Below, piece by piece: positions 218-18,818 of a stretch of DNA of 64,000 nucleotides. Under the pieces are notes generated by a model. It saw only the letters and a program-made list of their open reading frames with translations, was not told the DNA's origin and made no database searches. The DNA is taken from positions 1 to 64,000 of the forward strand of contig JACPZD010000036.1 in the NCBI GenBank assembly GCA_016195665.1. The letters are read 5' to 3'. The translations under genes and the position numbers were made by a program. The first letter of the stretch is position 1, and each line of letters starts with the position of its first letter. This DNA is from Gammaproteobacteria bacterium. GTDB taxonomy: Bacteria; Pseudomonadota; Gammaproteobacteria; SURF-13.

Positions 218-1504
218 TCAAAACATGAAATTAGCCAGCAGGTACAGTGTGTTGTTATCGGATGCGTTTCTGCCAAACCCGTCGTAATCCCTGCGTGCGC
301 CGTTGAATTTGCCATAGGCGGTATATTGCAGGGCGAGCTTGGTGTGCATCTGCGGCAGGTAATTCAACTCCATGACTACGCCATCGCTGTCGGTGCTGCC
401 CGTGGCGCTGCCGGTCACTTCCCCCATCGGATACAACGCAGGGTCCTCATCGCCGCGCAGCGTGAAGTAGCCCAAGGTAAAGCCGTAGCGGCGTTGGTAG
501 AAATAACTGCCATTCACCCTGAAGATGTTCAATTTATCCGTCACGGGCATAGCGGGCTCGCCCATCATCGCCGCCGGCATATCGTATTTCTGCCTGCGAT
601 TGATGAGGGTGCCGTACAGGGTGAAGATATGTGGCTCTGTGATGTATTGATACTGCGCGTCCAACGCGACGTCGCGGTAACGCGTGGTGTCACCCATCAT
701 CATCGCCATGTCATCTTTTAAGCGCACCTTGCCACTCATCCCGTAAGTGCCCACCGAGAAACTTTTGTTGTCCCATTGCTTCTCGTAGGCCAAGCGCCAA
801 TACGGCGCGACCCCCTGAATGGGGCCCATCTCACCACCGTCACGGGAACGATAGCCGCTCAACTCCACATAAATGGAGTTATTCCAGAAGGTGTATGCAC
901 CCAATCCGACCGCCTTCATGGACAGCGCCATATCCAAGCCGAGCCCTGCAGCGGGCATCGGCGTAATCGCCACCGGCTCGTAGGGGAACATATAGGCCGG
1001 CGTGCTGTTCCAAGCATCCTGCAGGGTAGGCATGTTGTTTAAGGTAAGGCCATAAGTGAGTTGCTTATCACCGATAGTGGCCTGATTGGCGTAACGGATA
1101 TCGGCCATGGTCAAGGTCGTCTGCTGCCTCTCTTTTTCATAGGCCAACTGCGCGAAGGCGCCGAGGTTTGAGAAGATTTTACCGGCGTAGTAGAGACTGG
1201 CCATCTGCGGAATGCGAAGCTTATTCGCCTCAACGTCCGCTCCGGATTTGTTGATGGAGGTGTAACTAAGCTGCACACCGGCGGAAATAGGAAGGGGCTT
1301 CTTTTCACCCTCCTCCGCATCGCTTAAGGTATAACCGCCCAGTTTGAACTGCCTGCCGAATGGCGTTAATTGCGGGAATACCGTATGGCAAGACGAACAC
1401 TCGAGACCCGTCTGCCGGGCGAAGCTCGGTACGGCGTGGGCATTGCTCGACAATAGTAACAACAGGGCCCAAAGACTAATGGCCTTGGCATGGTGATGTG
1501 ACAT
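218..1504 (-). CDS. Cyc2-like outer-membrane monoheme cytochrome-porin fusion
   Basis: The 428-aa protein has a signal peptide (about residues 1-24), then a short cytochrome segment PSFARQTGLECSSCHTVFPQ with a single CxxCH heme motif, then LTPFGRQFKLGGYTL. The rest is rich in alternating aromatic and polar strands and ends in Phe, as outer-membrane beta-barrels do. This architecture, the FARQTG-CxxCH-FGR-FK-GYT signature and the length match the Cyc2 family, which passes electrons from external donors such as Fe(II) across the outer membrane. AAGGAG precedes the ATG. It lies downstream of the small Cys-rich gene at 1583-1969 (78-bp gap), probably in one operon. The actual donor cannot be read from sequence, and distant Cyc2 relatives of unknown function exist. 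Confidence 0.8.
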   Translation of the reverse strand: MSHHHAKAISLWALLLLLSSNAHAVPSFARQTGLECSSCHTVFPQLTPFGRQFKLGGYTLSDAEEGEKKPLPISAGVQLSYTSINKSGADVEANKLRIPQMASLYYAGKIFSNLGAFAQLAYEKERQQTTLTMADIRYANQATIGDKQLTYGLTLNNMPTLQDAWNSTPAYMFPYEPVAITPMPAAGLGLDMALSMKAVGLGAYTFWNNSIYVELSGYRSRDGGEMGPIQGVAPYWRLAYEKQWDNKSFSVGTYGMSGKVRLKDDMAMMMGDTTRYRDVALDAQYQYITEPHIFTLYGTLINRRQKYDMPAAMMGEPAMPVTDKLNIFRVNGSYFYQRRYGFTLGYFTLRGDEDPALYPMGEVTGSATGSTDSDGVVMELNYLPQMHTKLALQYTAYGKFNGARRDYDGFGRNASDNNTLYLLANFMF

Positions 1505-1582
1505 GTTTTATTCTCCTTAGCGAAATGGGTGCAGTTGGTCTTGCTGTATGCAAGAACGAAAAGAGAGCGGCGCAAGCCACCC

Positions 1583-1969
1583 TTACAGATCAACTAAGGA
1601 AAAGCGCGGCGGTTCGCCGGGAGGGGGTGGGGAGAGGATGTCCGCCAATAACGGCTGTGTGATGGTAATGGTTGAGTGGACAATTACTGGTGAAAATTCA
1701 TAATTCATGAGAGATGCCGAGCAATGCGCACCGCACAAAGCGCACGCCAAACATGGCCCCTTATGCTGACCGCATGGCTGACCCGCCTGCTGGTGCTGCA
1801 TAGGAGTGATCGCTGAATGCTCATGCTCTGTGTGATTCGCTGCATGTGCAGCGCCATCAGCATGCGCCATCGCCGGATGGCTCGGCCCGACTTGGGCAAA
1901 CGCCATCTGCAGCGGGGCCACCACCAGCAGGCTTGCAAGCACCAAGTTGAGCCATTTCATACGCAACAT
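1583..1969 (-). CDS. small secreted Cys/His-rich protein (DUF2946-like)
   Basis: The 128-aa protein has a cleavable signal (residues 1-25), a His/Met-rich stretch (HPAMAHADGAAHAANHTEHEH), a Cys cluster with CLACALCGAHC, and a proline-rich tail (SPPPPGEPPR). This resembles the DUF2946 group of small periplasmic proteins found next to copper or heme export genes. A metal-binding role is inferred from composition only. It is the first gene of the likely operon with the Cyc2-like gene and is divergent from the beta-barrel gene at 2109. A Met at residue 4 is an alternative start. Confidence 0.55.
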   Translation of the reverse strand: MLRMKWLNLVLASLLVVAPLQMAFAQVGPSHPAMAHADGAAHAANHTEHEHSAITPMQHQQAGQPCGQHKGPCLACALCGAHCSASLMNYEFSPVIVHSTITITQPLLADILSPPPPGEPPRFSLVDL

Positions 1970-2067
1970 TGATAATTAGTCTACTCCCGCCATACGGCAT
2001 GTCAAGCACGCGAGCGGCGCCCATTAACGCATTAACCCTGAAATTTGACACATAGATCAAAATCATG

Positions 2068-2086
2068 AATAATAACGATTCGCATT
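2068..2086. promoter_or_regulatory. weak Fur-box-like sequence in the divergent intergenic region
   Basis: AATAATAACGATTCGCATT matches about 10 of 19 positions of the Fur consensus and forms an imperfect dyad. It lies between the divergent starts at 1969 and 2109, where an operator would be expected. The match is weak, and its identity as a Fur site is a guess. Confidence 0.2.
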
Positions 2087-2108
2087 TACAATCTAACGGA
2101 GAATCGTC

Positions 2109-2991
2109 TTGCAAAACTACCAGAACCCTCGTTGCCTGAAAAAATCTGCTCTGCCGGCTTTCCTCGGTCCCCTCGTCTTTTCCAGTACTGTCTGGGCTGG
2201 CAACGGTGCGAATTTCGTCCTGTATAACCATCACACCGAGAAGGCGGGCGCTACGGCAGTCATGCTGATGAACGACTTCGCCCGCGACGAGAACAGCCAA
2301 CCGTACAGCGCGCAAATGCTTATGGTTGAACGTGGCGTTACCGACAATATGGACCAGTGAGTTCATGGTTGAAGGCCAGAAGACGCCCGGTGAACCCTAT
2401 CGCGCTACTGGTTGGCGCTGGGAGAATCGGTATCGGTTCTTCGACTACGGAACATTTCTTAACCCTGTGCTGTATGTCGAATGGGAGAACCTGAAGACCA
2501 CGACGAAGTACATGATGGAAGTCAGCGGCAGGACCGATTCGGAAAGCGGCAAACCTGGCGCAACTTCCGAGGGAATTCTTGAAACCCGTCTCATTCTCGG
2601 ACACGACTTCAGCGACCGCTTCAACGCCGCGTTCAACTGGATCAACGAGACCAATGCCAGCACAAAGGCCACCGACTACGGGTACGCGCTTGGGTTGAAC
2701 TATGGATTGCTTGGCGCGGGGCATGACACGGAGAGTCACGCCCCTCACGCTCCGGGCAGTTCGGGAAGTCTCGCGGTGCGGGAGTTGACCTTGGGCGTGG
2801 AACTGTACGGCGGGCTCGGCAACAGCAGAAAAGGCATTACGGCGAGTAGCAATGTGACGGAGCAATACTTGGGCGTCAATCTGGTATCGCATCTATCGAA
2901 TGGTCTGATGTTGCAGGCTGGCCTGGCTTCCGGATTGACGTCTCCCAGTCAGCGCGGGTTGCTCCGATTCATGGTTGGGTACGACTTCTAA
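2109..2991 (+). pseudogene. outer-membrane beta-barrel protein, frameshifted
   Basis: The gene starts at a TTG preceded by GGAGA and encodes a signal peptide (to about residue 30, ending SSTVWAG), then NFVLYNHHTEKAG. It continues to VTDN, where the frame shifts; translation resumes in the +1 frame as WTSEFMVEGQ and runs to the stop at 2991. Removing one base (A at 2349) restores a continuous protein of about 293 aa with alternating strands and a terminal Phe. It resembles a family of beta-barrels found beside DUF6662/FMN-binding/ApbE genes; I recognise the type, not a named gene. The shift may be a real mutation or a sequencing error. Its 3' end is intact and lies 16 bp from the transposon's left repeat. 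Confidence 0.65.
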
Positions 2992-3006
2992 TATAGATAA
3001 AGCGAG

Positions 3007-3031
3007 CAGTCGTGAGCACACCAGCCGGCAT
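3007..3031 (+). repeat. left terminal inverted repeat of the Tn3-family element
   Basis: CAGTCGTG-AGCA-CACCAGCCG-G-CAT matches the reverse complement of 7097-7118 (CAGTCGTG-T-CACCAGCCG-C-CAT) at 20 positions, with a 3-bp indel. It sits 5 bp outside the tnpC stop codon. Confidence 0.6.
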
Positions 3032-3036
3032 CCGAG

Positions 3037-3393
3037 TTAGTCGCCGTCGAGGCTGGCGTAGGACAGGCTCTCCGGATAGAGCGCTATCAACTGCGATAGT
3101 GTTTCCTGTACCTGCTCCAGTGCGGTCATCATGCCGAGCACTTGGTCTTCCAGATCGACGGCGAACTCGAATAGATCGGCGACTTGGCTGCGCGATCCTT
3201 CGTTGAACACGGCCATCGCCAGTTGATGCAACTTCAACAGATCAGTGCGTAGTTGCGGCGGCCCGCCGTCCTCGCCGTCGTTCAAATCACCGCGCAGCTC
3301 GTCAACGGCATCGACCGCGCGCAGCAAAGCGGCGGTCTCAAAATTCTCGGGAACCAGTTCGTCCCATTCGTCGTCAGTGATACTGATCGCCAT
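3037..3393 (-). CDS. tnpC: TnpC-like Tn3 transposase regulator
   Basis: The 118-aa acidic, helical protein begins MAISITDDEWDELVPENFE. I chose this start because AGGA precedes the ATG at 3393; a longer reading frame upstream has no ribosome site. Length, acidity, orientation and position (transcribed outward, divergent from tnpR) fit TnpC of Tn4652/Tn5041-type transposons, which limits TnpA synthesis post-transcriptionally. The assignment is from memory of the family, and no catalytic motif is expected. The stop codon lies beside the left terminal repeat. Confidence 0.6.
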   Translation of the reverse strand: MAISITDDEWDELVPENFETAALLRAVDAVDELRGDLNDGEDGGPPQLRTDLLKLHQLAMAVFNEGSRSQVADLFEFAVDLEDQVLGMMTALEQVQETLSQLIALYPESLSYASLDGD

Positions 3394-3527
3394 ACCCGTC
3401 CTTTCCTCTTGTTGTCGTGAGTTCGGCCGCCTACAGGCCAAGCTCGCTGTGTGAGCCGAGACGCACGAGCTGCAACACAGCGTCATCCGTAATCGCGCCG
3501 AACGCTGCAGACATACTTTGACTGGCA

Positions 3528-3640
3528 TGTCGCAAAACAGATGTTTTACGACTCGTTGGCAACAACCAGCAAAATCGCCGTCGCAACGCCCTCAAAAATG
3601 TGCGGAAAACATTGTCGCAATGCGCCACTATACGGAAACT
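3528..3640. other. candidate res (resolution) site
   Basis: Upstream of tnpR, three TGTCGCAA-like motifs occur at 3528, 3579 and 3613. The first belongs to a near-perfect 24-bp dyad, GTCGCAAAACA-GA-TGTTTTACGAC (3529-3552). Three dyadic subsites between divergent tnpC and tnpR is the arrangement of Tn3-family res sites, with crossover in subsite I. The spacing of subsites II and III is approximate. Confidence 0.5.
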
Positions 3641-3662
3641 CATTTTTCATGGTTATCCACTT

Positions 3663-4253
3663 ATGTTGGTTGGCTACATGCGCGTTTCGTCGGACTCGGA
3701 TCGGCAGAACACCGACTTGCAGCGCGATGCGCTGCTGGCTGTGGGCGTCGATGCCCGCCATCTGTACGAGGATCGCGCCTCCGGGGCCAAGGACGATCGC
3801 TCCGGCTTGGCTCGGGCGCTCGAATTCGTGCGCCCCGGCGACGTGTTGGTCGTCTGGAAGCTGGATCGGCTCGGCGGCTCGCTATCGCACCTGCTTTCCA
3901 TCGTGAACACGCTCAAGGATAAGCAGGTGGCGTTTCGCTCGCTGACTGAGGGCATGGACACCACCACGGCATCGGGCGAGCTGCTGTTCCATGTATTCGG
4001 TGCGCTTGCACAGTACGAGCGGGCCTTGATCCAGGAGCGCGTCGTCGCCGGACTGGCCGCCGCCAAGCGGCGCGGTCGAATCGGCGGCAGGCCGCCCGCC
4101 ATCGTCGGTGAGAAGCTAGACACCATCATCGCCGCGCTGAACGGCGGCATGTCCAAGGCGGCCGTGTGTCGCAACTTTGGCGTGAAGCGTACCACCTTGA
4201 TCGAAACTCTCGCGCGGGTGGGCTGGCCCGCCTCGACGCGCACAGAAAGGTAA
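3663..4253 (+). CDS. tnpR: serine resolvase TnpR, active-site Arg replaced by Gly
   Basis: The 196-aa protein starts MLVGYMRVSSDSDRQ, with the nucleophilic Ser in RVSS, an acidic LYEDRASGAKDDR segment, LTEGMDTTTASGELLFH, AQYERALIQERV and a C-terminal helix-turn-helix (MSKAAVCRNFGVKRTTL). This is the small resolvase layout. The usual DRLGRS motif reads DRLGGS here (GGC instead of CGC), removing the residue equivalent to Arg71 of gamma-delta resolvase, which contributes to catalysis. The protein may therefore bind but not recombine. The start at 3663 removes a 21-residue non-homologous extension. It sits 4 bp before tnpA. Confidence 0.85.
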   Translation: MLVGYMRVSSDSDRQNTDLQRDALLAVGVDARHLYEDRASGAKDDRSGLARALEFVRPGDVLVVWKLDRLGGSLSHLLSIVNTLKDKQVAFRSLTEGMDTTTASGELLFHVFGALAQYERALIQERVVAGLAAAKRRGRIGGRPPAIVGEKLDTIIAALNGGMSKAAVCRNFGVKRTTLIETLARVGWPASTRTER

Positions 4254-4257
4254 CGGC

Positions 4258-7091
4258 ATGGCAGACAGTGGCAGCACGGAAGATCAATGGGCATTGGCAC
4301 CAGTCGAGCGCGAGCTGGTGATGACGAAAAGCCGTGCCAACCGCCTGGGCTTCGCTATTCTGCTGACGTTCTTTCGTGAGAGCGGTCGGTTTCCGCGTGA
4401 CGAGGCCGAAGTCGAAACGCCAGGCATCGCCGCGCTGAGCAAGCAACTCGATGTGCCCACGCCGATAGACGGAGAAGCCTTTCTCTCCGGGCGCACGGCG
4501 GAACGCTTGCGCGCTGAAATTCGCGTTCGTTTCGGCTTCCGCGAGGCCACGGTCGCCGATGCCGACATGCTGACTACCTGGCTGCGCGATCACGTTGCCG
4601 GGGAGGCTGGCGGCGAAATCGAGCCCATGATCGAACGGCTGGAAGCGCGCTGCTGCGAATTGGCGATTGAACCGCCAAGCCCTGACCGGGTAGAGCGCAT
4701 TGTTCGCACCGCGCTGCGCGCCCATGAAGACCGTTTCCACGCCGATGTTTATGAGCGGCTGTCGCCGGCCACGCGCGACCGGCTGGATGCCTTGCTGCGC
4801 CCGGAAAAAGCAGGCAGCGACGACGCCACCCAGGACGATGCGGCAGGCAGTGCACCTGCGGTATTGCTGACGTTACGCGGCAGTCCAGGTCGCCCCAGCC
4901 TCGCCAGCATGCAAGATGAGTTGGCCAAACTGAACCTCATCAGGGGGATTGACCTTCCCGGCAACTTGTTTGACCGCGTTTCGCCGCGCGACCTGGAACG
5001 CTGTCGGCGGCGGGTGTCGGTCGAAGCGCCGCATGAGCTGCGTCGGCATCCCGATGCCGCGCGTATGACCTGGCTGGCCGCCTTCATCTATTTGCGCGCC
5101 CGCACCCTGACCGACGACCTGGTAGACCTGCTGATCGAAACCATCCACCAGATTGGCGCGCGTGCCGAGCGCAAGGTCGAACGGGAATTGCTGGATGACC
5201 TCAAGCGCGTCACTGGCAAGCAGAACCTGTTATTCGAGCTGGCCGACGCCACGCTGGCGAAACCTGACGGCGTGGTGCGCGAGGTGGTGTTTCCGGTGGT
5301 GGGCGAACAGACGTTGCACGATCTGGTCAAGGAGTGGAAGGCCACTGGCCCGACCTACCGCGTCACGCTGCGCACCGTCATCCGCAATTCGTACCAGGGT
5401 CATTACCGCCGCATGGTGCCCACGCTGCTGGCCGCGCTGGAGTTCCGCTCCAACAACGACCGCCGCCGCCCCGTAATGCAAGCGCTCGACCTAGTGAAGC
5501 GCTTTGCCGACACCAAGGTGCATACCTTTCCTCCAGACGAAGACGTGCCGCTCGATGGCGTGGTACGCGGACTGTGGCGCGATGCGGTGATGGAGAAGGA
5601 TGCTGCTGGCCGGGATCGGGTCAACCGCGTGACCTACGAAATCGCGGCGTGGAGGCGCTGCGCGAGCGGCTGCGCTGCAAGGAAATCTGGGTGGTCGGCG
5701 CGAACCGCTATCGCAAGCCCGACGATGACCTGCCTGCCGACTTTGACGAGAACCGCGACGACTACTACCAGGCGCTGAATCTCCCGCTTGACGCGGATCG
5801 CTTTATCGCCGACTTGCAGGCCGAGATGCGCGAAGCGCTGAGCACCTTCGCCGGGCTGAAAAAGAACCCGTATGTTCGTATCGGTCCCAAGGGCGGCGGC
5901 TGGATCACGTTGACGCCACTCGATGCGCAGCCCGCGCCGCCCAACCTGACCGCGCTCAAAGCCGAACTCAATGCCATTTGGCCGATGACCAGCCTGCTCG
6001 ATATGGTCAAGGAAGCCGACCTGCGGTTGAACTTCACTGACGCCTTGAAGAGTCCGACTGCGTATGAAGCCTTGGGGCGCGACGTGTTGCAGCCGCGCTT
6101 GCTGTTGTGCCTGCATGGCCTGGGCACCAATGCCGGGTTGCAGCGCATGGCGGGCTTGGAGTCCGGCACAACAGCCAAGGATTTGGCCTACGTGCGTCGG
6201 CGTTACATCAGTGTGGATGCGATGCGCCGGGCGATTGCCATGTTGCCGATGGCACACTGCATGCCCGTAACCCGGCCATTTGGGGCAGCGGCACGACCGC
6301 CTGCGCTTCCGACTCGAAACACTTCGGTGCATGGGATCAGAACCTCACCACGCAATGGCATGTCCGCTATGGAGGGCGCGGCGTCATGATCTATTGGCAC
6401 GTCGAGCGTAGCTCGCTGTGCATCCACTCCCAACTCAAATCGCCGTCATCGTCCGAAGTAGCGTCGATGGTCGAGGGCGTGATCCATCACTGTACCGAGA
6501 TGGAGGTGGATCGCCAGTACGTGGATTCGCACGGGCAGAGCACGCCTGCAACAGATTCTGACCAAGCCCATCGACTGGGAGTCGGTGCGGCAGCAGTACG
6601 ACCAGATGGTTAAGTACACGACCGCATTGCGCCTGGGTACGGCGGAAACCGAAGCCATCTTGCGGCGTTTCACCAAGAAAAACGTGCAGCACCCGACCTA
6701 CAAGGCGTTCGCCGAGCTGGGCAAGGCGATCAAGACCATCTTCCTGTGCCGCTACTTGCACGAGGAATCGCTGCGCCGCGAGATCAGCGAAGGGCTGAAT
6801 GTGGTCGAGCAGTGGAACGGGGCGACCGACTTTGTGTTCTTCGCACGTCGCGGCGAGATGGCAAGTAACCGGCGTGAGGATCACGAAGTCAGCATGCTCG
6901 CGCTGCACCTGATCCAGAACTGCATGGTCTACGTTAACACGCTGATGATCCAGAAGGTGCTGGCGCAACCGAACTGGCAAGGGAAGCTGACGCCGCGCGA
7001 TTACGCTGCCTTGACGCCGCTAATTTGGGAACACGTCAACCCGTATGGCCGGTTTGACCTCGACATGAACTCCCGACTGGCGTTGCTGTAA
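4258..7091 (+). pseudogene. tnpA: Tn3-family transposase TnpA, two frameshifts and an internal deletion
   Basis: Read across three frames, the 2.8 kb gives most of a Tn3-type DDE transposase, including [58 protein letters not shown] and the C-terminus [16 protein letters not shown]. One base is missing near 5648 (frame resumes VEALRERL) and one near 6241 (resumes [10 protein letters not shown]). At about 6541-6547 roughly 40 codons between HGQS and [12 protein letters not shown] are absent compared with the family. The protein would be about 985 aa if intact. Transposition by this copy is very unlikely. Confidence 0.9.
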
Positions 7092-7096
7092 TTGAA

Positions 7097-7118
7097 ATGG
7101 CGGCTGGTGACACGACTG
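7097..7118 (-). repeat. right terminal inverted repeat of the Tn3-family element
   Basis: This is the inverted partner of 3007-3031, beginning 5 bp after the tnpA stop codon. It supplies the ATG and first codons of the downstream open frame, which are therefore transposon sequence. Confidence 0.6.
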
Positions 7119-7747
7119 TTGGGTCTTTCCCCAACCAGATGGACGGGACAACCGCCGGTCCGAATACCGATATTCCCGACAGCTTCGATCCAACGTCCCG
7201 CTACAAGATGAGCCGCGTCGAATCGGTGTCGTGGGAAAACATCTACCAGGTCTCCAACCCGCTCGTGGATCCGATCGGCTTGGCGCTCTACGTCGAGCCT
7301 GTCTTGGGACCGCGTAATAAGGAGCTGGAGTTCAAACTCATCCTGCAAAAGAACTTTTTGGATGACCGGCTGATCTGGGCCACGAACTTCATCACGGCGC
7401 TTGAGAACAATAAGCGTGGCAGTTCGGTCGAGAAAGCCACTGAGGTGGACGTTCTGACGGGGTTCTCCTATCGTTTCATGAATAATTGGTCAGCCGGGCT
7501 GGAGACCCGCAACCACCATGAATTCACCGGCTATGGCTACGGCGTAGCGAATCACTCCGCATGGTTCCTCGGGCCGAACATCCATTACGCAACCAAGAGC
7601 TGGTGGCTGACTGCCGCGTGGCGCACCCAGATGCCTTGGGCCAGCGGATTCCAAGATGACCAAAAAGAGGTTATCAGCGACGGGCGTATTTATGGCGATG
7701 AGCACGTACGCGATCAGTTCATGCTCAAAGTCGGGGTACCGTTCTGA
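7097..7747 (+). pseudogene. DUF6662-like outer-membrane protein, 5'-truncated
   Basis: The 216-codon frame lacks a signal peptide and opens inside the transposon end, so its first residues (MAAGDTTV) are not original. From about residue 25 it matches DUF6662-type beta-barrels: PIGLALYVEP, FKLILQKNFLDDRLIWATN, GFSYRFMNNWSAGLE, WFLGPNIHYATKSWWLTAAW and a terminal Phe. Compared with that family about 100 N-terminal residues are missing. Without a signal it cannot reach the outer membrane. Its stop overlaps the ATG of the FMN-binding gene (TGATG), so it was probably the first gene of that operon. Confidence 0.65.
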
Positions 7748-8280
7748 TGCGATGGGAACCGTTCATTGCGGCCCCCCTGGTCGTCATCTCAACGGCCAGT
7801 TGGGGCGATGTCTACTTTTCGACCGAGCAGGCGCAGCAGGCCATGTTCCCAGGCGGCAAGTTCACCCAGGTTGCGCTGAGCTTGACGCAGGAGCAGCGCG
7901 ATGCGCTACGCGCCCGCTCTGGGGTGTATGAGCCATTTCAAGAGAATCGTGTGTGGTCGGTGGAGGGCCAAGGCTTCTTCGTCATCGACCAGGTGGTGGG
8001 CAGGCACGAGTTGATCACGTACGCCGTCGGGCTTAATCCCGATGGCAGCGTCAAGCAGATCGAAATTCTGGAATACCGCGAGACCTACGGCTCCGAGGTG
8101 CGCGGGGCATGGCGACAGCAGTTCGTCGGCAAGACGGCCTCGTCGCCGGTCAAGCTGAACCAGGACATCACTAACATCACTGGCGCCACGCTGTCGTCCA
8201 AGCACATCACTGATGGGGTGCGGCGGGTGCTGGCTGTTTATGATTTGGCGCTGAAGGGGCTGCCAGGTGCCAAGCGTTGA
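7747..8280 (+). CDS. periplasmic FMN-binding domain protein, predicted ApbE substrate
   Basis: The 177-aa protein has an N-terminal signal or anchor (residues 1-20) and an FMN-binding domain. It contains GFFVIDQVVGRHELITYAVG, ILEYRETYGSEV and the flavinylation motif D-ITNITGATLSS, where Thr148 would carry FMN through a phosphoester bond. This domain occurs in RnfG, NqrC and NosR. ApbE, the enzyme that attaches the FMN, is encoded by the next, overlapping gene. Together with the four-helix protein downstream and the beta-barrel upstream it looks like a flavin-based extracytosolic electron carrier; that role is inferred from motif and context. Confidence 0.85.
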   Translation: MRWEPFIAAPLVVISTASWGDVYFSTEQAQQAMFPGGKFTQVALSLTQEQRDALRARSGVYEPFQENRVWSVEGQGFFVIDQVVGRHELITYAVGLNPDGSVKQIEILEYRETYGSEVRGAWRQQFVGKTASSPVKLNQDITNITGATLSSKHITDGVRRVLAVYDLALKGLPGAKR

Positions 8281-9112
8281 GCGCATGCGCCCTTTGCTGG
8301 GGACATTCGTGACGATTCGCGCCCAAGGCGCTGTCGATGCCTCGGAGGCCGCCGTAGCAGCAGCCGTCGAGTCGGCGTTTGTCGCCATCTCGCGGGTGGA
8401 TCGGCTGATGAGTTTTCATCGGCGCGGCAGCGACATTGGTCGCTTGAATCGGGCGCGGCCAGGGACTCGCTTGCGTGTACATCGTTGGACCTACCAAGTC
8501 CTCCGCGAGGCACAGCGCTTGCGGTTGGAGAGCGGTGGTGCATTCAACTGCAATGTTGGTACGCCTCTCATGCGCGCAGGTCTTCTACCCAAGCTGGTTC
8601 GCGGTCAGCCCGTCCGTCGACGCCACGCTCTGCCTGACATTCATCTGGATCAGTACAGATGGATTCGACTGTCGGCAAGGGTGGTGTTCGATCTTGGCGG
8701 CATTGCCAAAGGCTTCGCGGTGGACAAAGCCGTAGAGACGTTGCAGCGGGGTGGTATTGCAAGTGGCTTGGTGAATGCGGGTGGGGACATGCGGGTCTTT
8801 GGCGTCGAGCCGCAGCCGGTTTGGGCGCGTTGCCCCAGCGATCCGGCGAACGTACGGATGATCGGCATGCTGACCAATGGGGCTATTGCCACGTCTGCGG
8901 CCTACTTCGTTGATCGCAACCCGTCAGGTGGCGCGGCGGCAAGCGCTATTGTTAAAGCGACAACCGGGCGCAGGGTGAGGATGGCCAGTAGCGTTTCGGT
9001 CGTTGCCCGCAGCGGCATGCTGGCCGATGCATTGACCAAAGTGGCCGTCATCAAGCAGCGGCTTCCCAGTCGCCTTGCCAGATATGCGCGAGCCAGGATG
9101 GTAACGATATGA
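8267..9112 (+). CDS. apbE: ApbE family FAD:protein FMN transferase
   Basis: The 281-aa protein shows the ApbE hallmarks: RPLLGTFVTIRA near the start, FDLGGIAKGFAVDKAVE, the metal-binding NAGGDMRVFG, GAIATSAAYFVDR and a C-terminal segment with DALTKVAVI. It transfers FMN from FAD onto Thr of the target motif. The gene overlaps the FMN-binding gene by 14 bp and the next gene by 4 bp, which indicates coupled translation. Start is GTG at 8267; an ATG at 8285 is possible. Neither start gives a signal peptide or lipobox, unusual for an enzyme that usually acts outside the cytoplasm. Confidence 0.9.
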   Translation: MPSVERMRPLLGTFVTIRAQGAVDASEAAVAAAVESAFVAISRVDRLMSFHRRGSDIGRLNRARPGTRLRVHRWTYQVLREAQRLRLESGGAFNCNVGTPLMRAGLLPKLVRGQPVRRRHALPDIHLDQYRWIRLSARVVFDLGGIAKGFAVDKAVETLQRGGIASGLVNAGGDMRVFGVEPQPVWARCPSDPANVRMIGMLTNGAIATSAAYFVDRNPSGGAAASAIVKATTGRRVRMASSVSVVARSGMLADALTKVAVIKQRLPSRLARYARARMVTI

Positions 9113-9597
9113 CTACCCATCACATGTTCAGCATCCGGCTGCCGAAAGCGCAACGCTGGATGACCTACTTGGCGTTGGTCGCGGTGGCCATCAGCGGCAT
9201 CGTTTGGTGGTTGTTGCACGACGTACTGCAATGGGGATGGATGCTCGCCGAGCGTCGCTTGCTGATTTCGCACGGGATCGCCGCTGCCGCCACGCTCGTC
9301 ATCGTCGGTGGACTGTTGCCGCTGCACATCCGCTTGGCCTGGCGCATTCGACGCAATCTGTCTTCAGGGGTTGCCGCACTGGTAGTTATGACGCTGCTGG
9401 CTGCGACCGGATTGCTGCTGTATTACGGCGGTGAGGATTGGCGCGACTGGGTACGATGGGCGCACATCGGTGCAGATCTCATCGCCGCACTTGCCATCCC
9501 GGTTCATGTCTGGTTGGGACGCAGGAAGCTCTCTCGCTCGGCTGCTCCCGTCGCGTCGGCAACGCGCAGCCAACGCTCCGAACGTGCGACATCATGA
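9109..9597 (+). CDS. four-helix membrane protein, b-type cytochrome-like (DUF4405-like)
   Basis: The 162-aa protein has four hydrophobic segments (about residues 18-40, 51-72, 87-107 and 118-135). His residues sit near helix ends: WLLHD, LISHG, LPLHIR, RWAHIG, IPVHVW. That pattern is like small cytochrome b561/DUF4405 membrane cytochromes. It overlaps apbE by 4 bp. In context it could pass electrons from quinol to the flavinylated protein; heme binding is inferred from the His positions only. The polar C-terminal tail may have been altered by the rearrangement just downstream. Confidence 0.6.
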   Translation: MTTHHMFSIRLPKAQRWMTYLALVAVAISGIVWWLLHDVLQWGWMLAERRLLISHGIAAAATLVIVGGLLPLHIRLAWRIRRNLSSGVAALVVMTLLAATGLLLYYGGEDWRDWVRWAHIGADLIAALAIPVHVWLGRRKLSRSAAPVASATRSQRSERATS

Positions 9598-9609: not shown

Positions 9610-9729
9610 ATGCCCCGCCGTTCGATCCTGTCCGCCGCCGAGCGAGCAAGCCTGCTGGCGTTACCCGATACCGAAGACGAACTCATCCGGCACTACACTT
9701 TCAGCGAGCCTGACCTATCTGTACTCAAC
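9610..9729 (+). pseudogene. 5' fragment of a second Tn3-family transposase gene
   Basis: The first 38 codons read [20 protein letters not shown] followed by [18 protein letters not shown], the conserved N-terminus of Tn3-subgroup TnpA. Homology stops abruptly where QRRG should follow. The start differs from the tnpA at 4258, so it comes from another element. It marks the right boundary of the flavin cassette. Confidence 0.75.
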
Positions 9730-12585: not shown

Positions 12586-13047
12586 TCAGGAAGATCGGGC
12601 ATAACTCCCGACCAATTCGGCCTCGGCGAGGATATGGCCGCGCATGGCCTTTTCGAGCTTGGCCTTGGCGGGCACGCCCAGATCGGGAAGTATGATATCT
12701 AAAGCGTAGAGTTTATGAACATAACGGTGTTCTCCGGAAGGCGGACAGGGGCCGCCATAACCGGTGCTGCGAAAATCGTTCAACCCTTCCTTGGTTCCAG
12801 AGGGCAGTTGCTGCGCCCTCACGCCCTCCGGCAAACCTTTACTCTCCGGCGGCAGATTGTAAAGAACCCAGTGCACCCAGGTGCGTCCCGGGGCGTCGGG
12901 ATCATCCACGATCAAGGCCAGACCTTTTGCCTCCTTCGGCACACCGGACCACACGAGGGGCGGAGAGATATTTTTGCCGTCACAGGTGTAGATCGAGGGA
13001 ATCCCCTCATTGTGGCTGAAGGCGGGTGAAGTCAATGTCAGCGTCAT
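12586..13047 (-). CDS. YbhB/YbcL family PEBP-like protein
   Basis: The 153-aa protein has the phosphatidylethanolamine-binding protein fold signature: IPSIYTCDGKNISPPLVWSG, DDPDAPGRTWVHWVLYNLP and GYGGPCPPSGEHRYVHKLYA, which line the anion pocket. Bacterial YbhB/YbcL proteins are cytoplasmic and of unclear role. It lies between the PLD gene and cusA, all on the minus strand, with no evidence of functional linkage. Confidence 0.9.
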   Translation of the reverse strand: MTLTLTSPAFSHNEGIPSIYTCDGKNISPPLVWSGVPKEAKGLALIVDDPDAPGRTWVHWVLYNLPPESKGLPEGVRAQQLPSGTKEGLNDFRSTGYGGPCPPSGEHRYVHKLYALDIILPDLGVPAKAKLEKAMRGHILAEAELVGSYARSS

Positions 13048-13084: not shown

Positions 13085-16000
13085 TCATTCTACGGACCGG
13101 CGCTTCCACAGTAAATATAACACCGGGATCAGAAACAGCGAAACCAGCGGCGCGGTAATCATGCCGCCAACCATGGGGGCGGCGATGCGTTTCATGACTT
13201 CGGAGCCGGTGCCGCTGCCGATCATGATGGGTAACAGTCCGGCGATGATGACGGCGGCGGTCATGGCGAGCGGGCGCACGCGCAGCGCGGCGCCTTCGAT
13301 GACGGCGGCTTGCAGTTCGGCGAGTGTCTTGGGCTGATGCCGCGCGTAGGCCTGGTTGAGATACACCAGCATCACCACGCCGAATTCGGCGGCCACACCG
13401 GCCAGCGCAATAAAGCCTACACCCACCGCGACGGAAAAGTTATAACCCAGCAGATACAACAGCCAGAAGCCGCCCACCAGCGCCAGGGGCACGGCGCCCA
13501 TCACCATCAGCGACTGCGTGAGGTTGCGAAAGCTGAGATAAAGCAGCAACAGGATAATCGCCAGCGTGAACGGGATGACGTATTGCAGCCGTTGCCTGGC
13601 GCGCTCCAAATATTCGTATTGGCCGGACCAGGCGAGCGTGTAGCCGGCGGGCAGTTTGACTTGATCCGCAACACGCTGTTTTGCCTCGCTCACATAGGAG
13701 CCCAGGTCACGCCCTTCGATTTGCACATAAATCCAGCCGCTGAGCCGGGCATTTTCGCTTTTGAGCATGTCGGGGCCGTCGGCGATTTCAATCTTTGCTA
13801 CGTCGCTTAACGCGATCTGTGCGCCGCCGGCGGCCACCACGGGCAGCAGGCGCAGTTGTTCCAGCGAGTCGCGCACTTCCTGCGGGTAGCGGATGTTGAT
13901 CGGATAGCGCTCACGCCCCTCGACGGTCTCCGCGATGTTCATGCCGCCCACGGCGGCGCTGATGACCTCCTGGATGTCGGCGATGTTCAGCCCATACCGC
14001 GCGGCGGCGCGGCGGTCTATATCAATCATGATATAACGCCCGCCGGTGACACGCTCCGCATACGCCGACGTGGTGCCGGGGATGTCGCGCAAGGCGTTCT
14101 CGACCTGTTTGCTGAGTGTGTCTATCACCTGTAGATCAGGCCCGGCGATCTTCACGCCCACCGGGCTTTTGATGCCGGTGGCCAGCATGTCTATGCGCGT
14201 CTTGATGGGCATGACCCAGACGTTCGCCACACCGGGGAACTGCACGATGCGATCCAGTTCCTGTTTCAGTTTTTCCAGCGTCATGCCGGGACGCCACTCG
14301 CTTTTGGGCTTGAATTGAATCAGTGTCTCCAGCATGCTGAGCGGCGCGGGATCCGTAGCCGTGTCGGCGCGTCCGGCCTTGCCGAACACGCTGCGCACTT
14401 CGGGAACGGTCTTGATGAGTTTGTCGGACTGCTGTAGAAATTCCTGCGCCTTGCCGATGGACACACCCGGCAACAGCGTGGGCATGTACATGAGGTCGCC
14501 CTCGTCCATGTCGGGCATAAACTCACTGCCCAAGCGGCTCAAGGGATACATCATGCTCACCACCAGCAAGACGGAAACCAGCACCGTCAACTTAGGGATG
14601 CGCAACACGTTTTGCAGCAGCGGCTTGTACAGGGCGATGAGTACGCGGTTGATGGGATTTTTATGCTCCGCAATGACCCGGCCGCGAATCAAATACCCCA
14701 TCAGCACCGGCACCAGCGTGATGGAAAGCCCCGCCGCGGCCGCCATCGCGTAGGTCTTGGTGTAGGCAAGCGGCGCGAACAGGCGTCCCTCCTGGCCTTC
14801 CAGGGTAAACACCGGAAGAAAACTCACGGTGATGATGAGCAGCGCAAAAAATAAAGGCGGGCCGACCTCAGAGGCTGCCTTGTACATCAACTCCCAGCGG
14901 TCATGCCCACCATGGCGCTCCAAATGTTTGTGCGCGTTTTCGATCATCACGATGGCGGCGTCCACCATCGCGCCCACGGCGATGGCAATGCCGCCCAGCG
15001 ACATGATGTTGGCGTTGATGCCCTGGTAATACATCACCAGGAACGCGGCGAGTATGCCCAGCGGCAGGCTGACCACCGCCACCAGGGCCGAGCGCAGATG
15101 CAGTAAAAACGCCGCGCAGACCAGCGCCACGACGATGAATTCTTCAATCAATTTTTCCTTGAGATTATCCACCGCGCGCCGGATGAGGCTGGAGCGGTCA
15201 TAGGTCTCGACGATTTCCACGCCTTGCGGAAGCTGTTTCTTGATTTCGGCCAGCTTGGCCTTGACCGCAGAGAGGGTGTCCAGCGCGTTGTAGCCGCTGC
15301 GCATCACGATGATGCCGCCCACCACTTCACCCTCGCCGTTCAGTTCCGCAATGCCTTGACGCAGTTGCGGGCCCAGGCGGATCTCGGCCACGTCTTCGAG
15401 CAACAGCGGCGTGCCGTTCTTGCTGACGCCCAAGGGTATGGCGCGCAAATCTTCGATCCCCGTGAGATAACCCTTGGCGCGCACCACGTATTCCGCCTCG
15501 GCCATTTCAATTACCGATCCGCCGACTTCCTGGCTGGCCTGCTCGACGGCGGCGCGCAACGTCGCCAGGGTGAGGTTGTAAGCACGCAGGCGCGCAGGGT
15601 TCACCACGATTTGGTATTGCTTCACCATGCCGCCCAACGTGGCCGCCTCGGCCACGCCCGGCACGGCGCGCAGTTGAAACTTGAGCACCCAATCCTGCAA
15701 GCTGCGCAACTGCGCTATATCGTGCTTGCCGCTGCGATCGATGAGCGCGTATTCGTAAATCCAGCCCACGCCGGTGGCATCGGGTCCCAGCGCGGTACGC
15801 GCGCCCTTCGGCAGACGGTCGGTCACCTGGCTCAAATACTCCAGCACGCGCGAGCGCGCCCAATAAAGGTCGGTGCCGTCGGCGAATAATACATAGATAT
15901 ACGAATCGCCGAAGAACGAGTAACCGCGCACCGTGGTGGCGCCCGGCACCGACAGCATGGTCGTGGCGAGGGGATAGGTGATTTGATCCTCTACCACCTG

Positions 16001-16174
16001 CGGCGCCTGGCCCGGGTAACTGGTCTTGATGATGACTTGCACGTCGGACAGATCGGGAATGGCGTCGAGCGGCATACGCATCACGGCGTATACGCCAAAG
16101 CCGCTGAGCAACAGCGCCAGCAGCAGCACCAATGCGCGGTTTGTGAGCGACCAGCGTATGACGGATGCGATCAT
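13085..16174 (-). CDS. cusA: heavy-metal efflux RND pump CusA
   Basis: The 1029-aa inner-membrane proton antiporter of the HME-RND family has 12 predicted helices and two large periplasmic loops. Helix 4 carries [19 protein letters not shown] with the proton-relay acidic residue. [15 protein letters not shown] and [14 protein letters not shown] keep Met residues at positions used by E. coli CusA for Cu(I)/Ag(I), so monovalent metal specificity is likely. Its start overlaps the cusB stop by 4 bp (order cusC-cusB-cusA). Confidence 0.93.
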
Positions 16175-17505
16175 GGTGCACCTCCCGCGCGCCGGCCTTT
16201 GGTCACCACATTTTTCTCGGCATCCGGCGCACTCAGGCGTTGCAATCCCGCCTTGAGATTGCTTTCGGAATCGAGCAGAAATTGCCCTGACGTAACGACC
16301 TGCGTCCCTTCTTCCAGACCTGAAATAATTTCGGTGCGCTCACCGTATTCGGCGCCCGCCTCGACCGTGCGCGCCGCGAATCTGCCTTCACCCAAGGCCA
16401 CAATCACCCGGCTCTCCGTGCCGGTGCGTATCAGCGCCTCGCGCGGGATACTGAGCGCCACACGCTCATCGCCTGCGTGGAGGTACGCCTCGGCAAACAT
16501 ATTGGGCTTCAACAACAGATCGGGATTATCGAACCGCAAGCGCATCTTGATTGTGCGCGTCACGGGGTCCGCACTGGGGTATACGTACTCCAGTTTGCCG
16601 CGCCACACCTTGCCGGGCAGTGCGGGGACACGCAGCTCTGCGTCCGTACCGGCGGCCAAACCGGCGGCCTGTTGCGGGAACACATCCATCACCACCCATA
16701 CGCTAGCCGGATCAACCAGACTCGCCACCACCGTGGAGGATTCCACAAACATGCCCTGACGCACGCCCAGCGATTCCACCACGCCGTCGGCGGGCGCGTA
16801 GACCTTGATCAGCGTTTCGGCCTTGCGGGTTTTATCCAGGACGGCAATCTGCTCTTCCGCCAGGCCCAGGGAGCGTAAACGCACGCGCGCCGCACTCCGC
16901 ACAAAATTATTGCCCGACGCGACGGCCTGCAAGTACTCCTCTTGGGCGCTCGCGAGTTTGGGTGAAAACACCTCGAAGAGCAGATCGCCTTTGTGCACTT
17001 CTTCACCCACAAACGTGACATGCTGGCGTTCGATCCAGCCTTCATAGCGCAGATGAATATGCCGGATACGGTCCTCATCCCAGCTCACGTAACCCACGGC
17101 GGCGATGCGCCGCTTTAACACACTGCGCTCCGCAGGCTCGGTGCGTACGCCCATATTGTTGACCATCGCAGGTGAAATGGTGACGACGGCCGCGCCTCCG
17201 GTCGCTCCCGGCATCCTGCCTCCCGCAACATTAGCAGAACCCTTCGCTATCGCTCTTCCCTGTACGTTAGATGCATCATCGTAGATCGGGATGTAATCCA
17301 TACCCATTTCGTCCTTGAGGGGCTTGTCGGCGGTGATCGCCGGGTTCATGGGATGCCGGTAGAATTTTGGCTTCTTTCCCTGGACGTCAGCGGAAGTCGC
17401 CGGCGCCCTATCCATCTTTCCCCCGTTCAGCCCGTAACGTTGCACGGCCATACCCGCCAGCACGCTCAATACGACGAGCACTGCCACCCAGATCCGCGGC
17501 TTCAT
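16171..17505 (-). CDS. cusB: RND efflux periplasmic adaptor CusB
   Basis: The 444-aa membrane-fusion protein has an N-terminal anchor, a heavy-metal-binding segment ([20 protein letters not shown], then MDYIPIYDD), barrel-sandwich and hairpin domains, and a C-terminal beta domain ([20 protein letters not shown]). It links CusA to CusC and delivers Cu(I)/Ag(I). Between the metal segment and the first beta domain lies [16 protein letters not shown], encoded by a repeat also found in cusC (17201-17233). It overlaps cusC and cusA by 4 bp each. Confidence 0.93.
17201..17233 (-). repeat. 33-bp intragenic repeat within cusB
   Basis: On the minus strand this encodes [11 protein letters not shown] in frame. 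It matches 18676-18708 in cusC at 32 of 33 positions. Both copies are followed by a CCCTGTACGT box, directly in cusC and after 21 extra bases in cusB. The arms GTCGC/GCGAC are self-complementary in the cusC copy. Confidence 0.8.
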
Positions 17506-18818
17506 GATGATTCTCCTTGCAGATACAACAATCGGGCCTGGGCCTTGGCGCGATCCACCCGCAGACGCAGGCCTTGCAGCCTGGCTTCCAGCTCGGTATT
17601 GCGTGCGCGGATAATTTCGGAAAAGGCGCCAAAGTTGCTCTGATACGCCTTGATCGCGGCCTCGGTATTTTGCCGGGCCTGGGGAAGAATTTCGTTCTGA
17701 TACGCCGTGTCGCGCTCCCCGAGCAGTCGCCAGGCGACGTAATCCGTCGCGAGGGCGTGCAGCAGGTCGCGCTTGCGGTCGTCGCGCGCATAACGCGCGG
17801 CATGCACCTGTTGCTGGCTCGCGGCGAGCCGCCTGTCCTGACGTTTGTCGGGGAACAGAGGCAACTCCACCGTGACCATCGCCGATACATAATCCGTGCG
17901 CCCTCCGCCGCGCAGGCCGTAATTCACCCCCACCCCCCAGCCCGGCTGGTACTGGGCGCGTGCGATCTCGACGTCACTCTGCCCGGCGTTCACCAGAGCA
18001 TCCTCCACACGCATGAGCGGATGCGCATCCAGACGCGCCTCGATCTCCTCACGACGCGCCGGCTCGGCGAGCACGGGAAAATCTTGAGCGAGCGGCCGCT
18101 CCGGTTGATGCGAACCCAGCCATTTAGCGAGTTCGGCCTGGGCCACCGCGCGCTCGGTCTCGATGCCCGCCAGCCGTTCCTTCACCATCCGCTGCTCCAG
18201 TTCCACGCTCAATAGATCCTGCGGCGTGGCAAGACCCGCGCCATATTGCGACTGCGCCACTTCGGTCAATTGCTTGAGCAGCTGCTGCGACTGTTGCACC
18301 ACGCTGAGGGCTTGCGTCTGGTAGTACACCTCCAGCCAACCGGCGCGCACGGCGTTGAGCACGTTGCGCCGCTGCTGCTCCGCACGCGCCCGTTCGGCGT
18401 CCGACATCGCCTCCGCCCGGCGCTGCTTGAAGTGCAGACTGTTTCCCGGCGGGAAGGCTTGCTGCGCGCCCAACGTGAGCATGGTGAAGTCATCGCCGGT
18501 GACACTAAGATTACGGGTGGGAACGTCTTGCAGGCCGAGGCTTAGCGTAGGATCGGGCAACTGGCCGTCCGCCACCGCTTGCTCCTGCTCGGCCGCGGCG
18601 AGTGCGCCGTAGCGCGGCAACAGCGGATCGGCGGCGAGCGCCAACTGTTCCGCCTCGCTCAAGGTCAGCGGGATTGTCGCTCCCGGCATCCTGCCTCCCG
18701 CGACATTACTACGTCCCTGTACGTCATCGGGATGATCGGCCGCGTTGACCGGCGCCACGGTCAGCACCAGCAGTGCGGCAATACAAAAAACCAGATAATT
18801 CTGGAAACAGTGAGACAT
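17502..18818 (-). CDS. cusC: TolC-family outer-membrane channel CusC
   Basis: The 438-aa protein has a signal peptide (ending APVNAA at about residue 26) and two repeated outer-membrane-factor domains with long helices (TLSEAEQLALAADPLLPRYG at about residue 52; LLSVELEQRMVKERLAGIE at about 202). It forms the outer-membrane exit duct of the CusCBA tripartite pump. No lipobox Cys is seen at the signal, unlike E. coli CusC. Residues 34-49 ([16 protein letters not shown]) are encoded by the repeat shared with cusB. It is the first gene of the operon. Confidence 0.9.
   Translation of the reverse strand: MSHCFQNYLVFCIAALLVLTVAPVNAADHPDDVQGRSNVAGGRMPGATIPLTLSEAEQLALAADPLLPRYGALAAAEQEQAVADGQLPDPTLSLGLQDVPTRNLSVTGDDFTMLTLGAQQAFPPGNSLHFKQRRAEAMSDAERARAEQQRRNVLNAVRAGWLEVYYQTQALSVVQQSQQLLKQLTEVAQSQYGAGLATPQDLLSVELEQRMVKERLAGIETERAVAQAELAKWLGSHQPERPLAQDFPVLAEPARREEIEARLDAHPLMRVEDALVNAGQSDVEIARAQYQPGWGVGVNYGLRGGGRTDYVSAMVTVELPLFPDKRQDRRLAASQQQVHAARYARDDRKRDLLHALATDYVAWRLLGERDTAYQNEILPQARQNTEAAIKAYQSNFGAFSEIIRARNTELEARLQGLRLRVDRAKAQARLLYLQGESS
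18676..18708 (-). repeat. 33-bp intragenic repeat within cusC
   Basis: This is the partner of 17201-17233. It encodes the same [11 protein letters not shown] peptide in the same frame, between the signal peptide and the first conserved domain, where an insertion would be tolerated. Confidence 0.8.

Follow-up and report, generated by a model that had tools for sequence, protein, structure and literature searches.

A flavin and cytochrome b gene cassette with its own outer-membrane barrel and Fur-like box, found as Tn3-family transposon cargo: a probable iron-limitation redox system

Does a Cyc2-like heme-porin that lies next to a flavin-based electron-transfer cassette form one extracellular conduit with it? 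The question is raised by positions 218–9597 of the window analysed here, which comprises bases 1–64,000 of contig C36 of a gammaproteobacterial genome (2.38 Mb, 99% complete). The initial annotation had placed there a fused heme-porin, two outer-membrane beta-barrels, an FMN_bind protein, the flavin mononucleotide (FMN) transferase ApbE and a four-helix, His-rich membrane protein, all of which are found where it put them, and had united them into a conduit with a heme exit and a flavin exit. Our analysis separates them: the four genes for barrel, FMN_bind, ApbE and four-helix protein probably constitute a redox system of the cell envelope, controlled by Fur, that serves under iron limitation and arrived as transposon cargo, and the Cyc2-like gene forms a module of its own, which transposon history brought next to this cassette.

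The remainder of a DUF6662 barrel gene (7133–7747, + strand) overlaps head to tail with the genes for an exported FMN_bind protein (7747–8280, +), ApbE (8267–9112, +) and a four-helix cytochrome-b561-like protein (9109–9597, +). The proposal that these four form one conserved flavin-based electron-transfer unit is borne out by their relatives. When a single genome of each species was scanned, at least 540 coding places for FMN_bind relatives were obtained; the best 80 of these plus five plasmids were read as 85 loci (L-numbers denote loci read for comparison). The order barrel/FMN_bind/apbE/four-helix recurs in most of the 85, beyond chance, and the cassette is complete in most of the best loci examined. 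A barrel is encoded in 83 of the 85, belonging to DUF6662 in 72 and being a different porin in 11; apbE was recognised in 72 loci and the gene for the four-helix protein in 71, several misses stemming from the simple open reading frame (ORF) caller. The same gene order is found on plasmids from Novosphingobium, Sphingomonas, Ideonella, Methylocystis and Bradyrhizobium. Ordinary aerobes such as Acinetobacter, Polynucleobacter, Variovorax, Dyella and Verrucomicrobia make up most of the hosts; Luteibacter, Sphingomonas, Chthoniobacter, Udaeobacter, Opitutaceae and Omnitrophota bins are also represented.

The FMN_bind protein matches PF04205 (E = 1.6e-11) and carries the sequence TGAT at T145–T148, within ITGATLS. 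The [ST]GA[ST] motif (SGAT or TGAT) is kept, by pattern, in 70 of 72 FMN_bind relatives, which makes Thr148 the likely flavin site; with both domain and motif in place, the protein has the marks of an ApbE substrate and is likely flavinylated at this residue by ApbE, whose gene product matches PF02424 (E = 1.1e-39). The four-helix protein is modelled with four helices at a predicted local distance difference test score (pLDDT) of 92, and its four conserved His residues fall into two pairs, 55/73 on helix 2 and 119/133 on helix 4; it is predicted to carry two hemes b. Matches to DUF4405 (PF14358) at E ≤ 0.01 occur in 16 of 40 members of its family, a weak b561/DUF4405 similarity, and the window protein scores 17.0 bits, below the gathering cut-off of 26.7. 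PF01794 gave one weak match among 40 relatives. A fold search with the model returned FdnI as the nearest hit (E = 0.08, not significant), a search of solved structures by sequence with this protein and the heme-porin gave nothing usable, and the key transmembrane genes of published flavinylation systems (NapH, MsrQ, PepSY, DsbD, Nqr/Rnf-like) have no Pfam match in the window cassette.

The DUF6662 protein matches PF20367 (E = 9e-8; 32.3 bits against a 27-bit cut-off), although the window copy lacks its N-terminal third. Intact versions, which the initial annotation had expected to be informative, exist in relatives; that of Polaromonas (L024), to which the window copy is 82–83% identical, combines the DUF6662 domain with a modelled 12-strand barrel (pLDDT 92.6) resembling the FapF, COG4313 and NanC channels. 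DUF6662 was also considered as an ApbE substrate and rejected, the [ST]GA[ST] motif being present in 1 of 77 DUF6662 proteins. A literature search for DUF6662, within the library used, found no paper.

Unseeded motif discovery in the promoters of the first cassette gene returned AAATGAGAATcATTCTCATTT with a log-likelihood ratio of 399, compared with about 57 for shuffles. We take this motif to be the Fur box; published Fur-box papers hold the same core or its TGATAAT form. In two-fold cross-validation, with held-out promoters counted at 12 bits or more, 49 of 83 cassette promoters carried the motif; it was present at 12 of 682 starts of other genes in these loci and at 2 of 210 starts inside the cassette. 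A count against a fixed consensus pointed in the same direction. With the threshold at 15 bits or more there are 72 sites in 1.1 Mb, 51 of them at the first gene of a cassette. The 64-kb window holds a single site of at least 12 bits, the palindrome GAATAATAACGATTCGCATTT at 2067–2087 (24.1 bits; next best 9.0 bits). It lies, as expected of a Fur-regulon member, within the promoter, here the native cassette promoter and leader (2028–2108, +), of which 2028–2105 is 81% identical to L024 7030–7107, just 5' of the intact DUF6662 gene. Elsewhere in the same genome, the box stands upstream of exbB-exbD-tonB, of a TonB receptor gene and of a cupredoxin-FTR1-outer-membrane-barrel operon, which indicates that the organism uses it for iron genes. 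The cassette would thus appear to be under Fur control and induced at iron limitation. Promoters of verrucomicrobial, Omnitrophota and related loci (L037, L057, L084, L094, L103) carry a variant palindrome near TTGAGACTnnGTCTCAA, which may be a Fur box specific to these lineages.

Iron genes also occur among the neighbours. FTR1 lies in or beside the cassette in L098, a Nramp gene sits between barrel and FMN_bind in L075, a FUR gene accompanies the cassette in L037 and L084, and bacterioferritin does so in L033, L035, L038 and L017. Some cassettes lacking a near box have one before a gene further upstream, for example CCP_MauG (L016, L075) or FTR1 (L098). Taken together, regulation and neighbours favour iron acquisition over a heme/flavin conduit. 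The operon with FTR1 in the window's own genome (L139, contig C1, 6538–8468), which stands behind its Fur-like box, encodes a Phenol_MetA_deg/COG4313-like barrel, and L139 pairs another iron permease with a small barrel.

Our best reading of the sequence data is that the cassette encodes a flavin/cytochrome b ferric reductase with its own outer-membrane channel. We propose the following hypothetical sequence of steps, in which (i) the four-helix di-heme-b protein would take electrons from the quinol pool and move them across the inner membrane; (ii) FMN_bind, once exported and provided by ApbE with a flavin at Thr148, would carry them in the periplasm; (iii) ferric iron entering through the co-encoded 12-strand barrel would be reduced by the electrons of FMN_bind; and (iv) ferrous permeases such as FTR1 or Nramp, encoded nearby or elsewhere, would then import the iron. 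More tentatively, the cassette may represent a previously undescribed class of TonB-independent, Fur-controlled iron-acquisition machine, built from a barrel of interchangeable family, an arm with covalently bound flavin and a membrane cytochrome with two hemes, which would reduce ferric iron at its own pore or immediately within it, occur in Proteobacteria, Verrucomicrobia and Omnitrophota bins, and move on Tn3-family transposons. The Fur box would give genes of 'unknown function' a candidate role in reducing ferric iron and taking it up with no TonB receptor.

Several observations weigh against this proposal. About 40% of the cassette promoters have no recognised box, iron transporters are found in two cassettes only, and most neighbours in the immediate flanks are housekeeping genes, for which reason a common functional neighbour could not be derived from the flanks. 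The nearest relatives of the cassette adjoin copper and heavy-metal genes. Finally, ApbE has no recognisable leader in almost all loci, that of the window included, whereas FMN_bind and barrel do; the missing signal peptide is puzzling because the substrate of ApbE is exported.

Comparable arrangements have been described. In the DUF4405/ApbE clusters (Huang et al. 2024, PMC11334425), apbE likewise stands beside a small His-rich membrane cytochrome for which a link of membrane electrons to extracytosolic flavoproteins is proposed. However, the protein here stays below the DUF4405 cut-off and has four modelled helices with four conserved His, not six transmembrane helices with four central His; those clusters often contain a flavinylated Flavodoxin_4 protein and a flavin transporter in place of FMN_bind and an outer-membrane barrel; and the portion of the source consulted describes no Fur control, whereas the cassette here has a Fur box. 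The PepSY-like/DUF2271/ApbE clusters (Meheust et al. 2021, PMC8238504) are also Gram-negative, combine a flavinylated periplasmic protein with a membrane heme protein, are Fur-repressed in some species and are tied to iron reduction. They differ in the membrane protein and in the flavinylated domain, and no outer-membrane barrel is named as belonging to them in the sections consulted; they are a parallel system. In the DUF3570/ApbE/DsbD clusters (PMC8238504), apbE also neighbours a large extracytosolic protein, but DUF3570 is itself flavinylated, unlike the near motif-free DUF6662 proteins. We propose that the cassette may work like the PepSY/DUF2271/ApbE and DUF4405/ApbE clusters while belonging, by the tests made, to neither.

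The mobility of the cassette is directly visible in Polaromonas, where L024 6315–12866 is a complete Tn21-like transposon with perfect 40-bp inverted repeats (IRs) at 6315–6354 and 12827–12866, a resolvase, a Tn3 transposase (E = 4.9e-158) and, as its sole cargo, the flavin cassette between tnpR and tnpA; no target-site duplication was seen around it. The same tnpA lies directly 3' of the cassette in L028, and the window retains its first 39 codons at that place (9610–9726, +; 72% identical). An even sample of the class comprised 369 genomes, of which seven have the cassette (197–266 bits, followed by a gap to 76). Horizontal transfer into the window's genome is most likely, because sampled members of its own family contain no strong cassette match and the closest copy among the matches listed, with an FMN_bind protein 85% identical, is in a Polaromonas metagenome-assembled genome. 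Tn21-like transposons are better known for mercury and antibiotic resistance; if the iron reading is true, an iron-acquisition unit joins their cargo.

Metal-resistance neighbours suggest a different role, in which the cassette would serve copper or heavy-metal redox homeostasis and detoxify or recycle copper with the surrounding Cop and Czc genes. CopA or CzcA genes lie near L024–L027 and L058, copper oxidases adjoin the cassette in Methylocystis heyeri, and the window itself contains, downstream of the island, a CzcCBA-like heavy-metal efflux operon of the resistance-nodulation-division type (13085–18818) as well as a gene for a small exported His/Cys-rich, metal-related protein (1583–1969, −) with weak CzcI/CopL/DUF2946 similarity below the curated cut-offs. 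Such neighbours are limited to the mobile subset, however, and the same metal-flanked loci carry Fur boxes, while iron genes are the neighbours elsewhere; we consider this explanation unlikely. Iron sparing, in which a flavin would take the place of cytochromes in a periplasmic electron path, respiratory or other, and no iron would be reduced, seems to us about equally unlikely. It accords with the flavodoxin-for-ferredoxin logic discussed in PMC8238504 and with the lack of an iron transporter in most cassettes, but the membrane partner is a predicted two-heme protein itself, the outer-membrane channel encoded in the cassette would go unexplained, and FTR1, Nramp and FUR genes are among the neighbours. 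Somewhat less probable is a function in oxidative stress or envelope repair, with cytochrome b and flavin protein feeding a reductase or a peroxidase such as the di-heme protein CCP_MauG. Its gene is directly upstream of the cassette in L016 and L075, and the four-helix model is partly similar in fold to E. coli superoxide oxidase (5oc0), though not significantly; CCP_MauG occurs in these two loci only, and its operons still carry Fur boxes.

The heme/flavin conduit of the initial annotation, which draws on the adjacency of the genes in the window and on the link of both types to extracytosolic electron transfer (PMC8406198, PMC8238504), is the least probable explanation, since none of the 85 cassette loci contains a Cyc2-like gene, none of 25 Cyc2-like loci has a convincing Fur box of the kind that marks the cassette (best 12.1 bits), the cassette is widespread among aerobes for which such transfer is not known, and the two other genomes with both keep them on separate contigs. 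Both outcomes that the initial annotation had named as refuting the union have been observed, in that the genes do not lie together in the other loci compared and the cassette is frequent in organisms without known extracellular electron transfer. In the class sample, a full Cyc2-like protein (above 200 bits) was found in 27 of the 369 genomes and together with the cassette in three, the window's own and those two, which belong to one other genus. No multiheme protein is among the listed ORFs of 218–9597, and with it the hallmark of an Mtr-type porin-cytochrome conduit is missing. Cyc2-like and flavin neighbours should therefore not be taken as an extracellular electron conduit.

The identity of the heme-porin itself (218–1504, −) was correctly recognised. 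Cyc2 is defined by a single CXXCH with AXPXFAR[QK][TY] upstream and PXL downstream (Keffer et al. 2021, PMC8406198), and the fused cytochrome-porin, which lies outside the cassette, has one CxxCH in the Cyc2 consensus (AVPSFARQT..CSSCH...PQL; sequence AVPSFARQTGLECSSCHTVFPQL). At 428 residues, with a hydrophobic leader ending in AHA by eye, it also agrees with the expected length of at least 365 residues and a signal peptide. It stands at the contig edge, and the gene order past it is invisible because the window begins at base 1 of C36. The gene adjoining Cyc2-like genes at the 25 loci is often a c-type cytochrome (11 by count). The window's heme-porin is one of four related genes in its genome, the fourth of which, at 6240–7637 of L107 (contig C40), is divergent and shows the motif in its FARQY form. 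Genes for RuBisCO and phosphoribulokinase are present in the genome as well, one RuBisCO gene with an in-frame TAA; their presence makes Cyc2-type iron oxidation plausible in this organism, and the L107 protein together with the RuBisCO genes hints at an iron-oxidising autotroph.

The local copy of the cassette has been damaged by a second Tn3-family element (3007–7132, left edge judged by eye), which entered the DUF6662 gene. It comprises tnpC (3037–3528, −), tnpR (3600–4253, +) and a multiply broken tnpA (about 4258–7091, +), its right IR GGGGAAAGACCC is intact and ends at 7132, its left IR is degenerate, and its similarity to transposons on plasmids of Aeromonas, Diaphorobacter and Acidithiobacillus is about 82%. 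The 5' third of the DUF6662 gene is gone and coding resumes at 7133. The initial annotation was right that both barrel genes are broken, but the ATG at 7097 is a false start for the second, because the sequence up to 7132 belongs to the transposon. The native promoter and start position now precede the other barrel gene (barrel 1, 2109–2991, +), itself split by a frameshift near 2350. With both barrel genes broken, the local cassette may not work; the frameshifts may be either biological or assembly errors.

Barrel 1 and the DUF6662 barrel are two different genes. We rejected barrel 1 as a second DUF6662 protein, its profile scores of only 3–4 bits making it at most a distant relative, and also as a duplicate of the FTR1-associated barrel in its own genome (BLAST E = 0.14, not significant); barrel 1 was matched by no plasmid sequence and only marginally, in one case, among 274 genomes. 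In other loci, two tandem DUF6662 barrels lie 5' of FMN_bind (L057, L089, L103 and possibly L045), and those in L057, L089 and L103 suggest that duplication and exchange of the barrel recur in the cassette.

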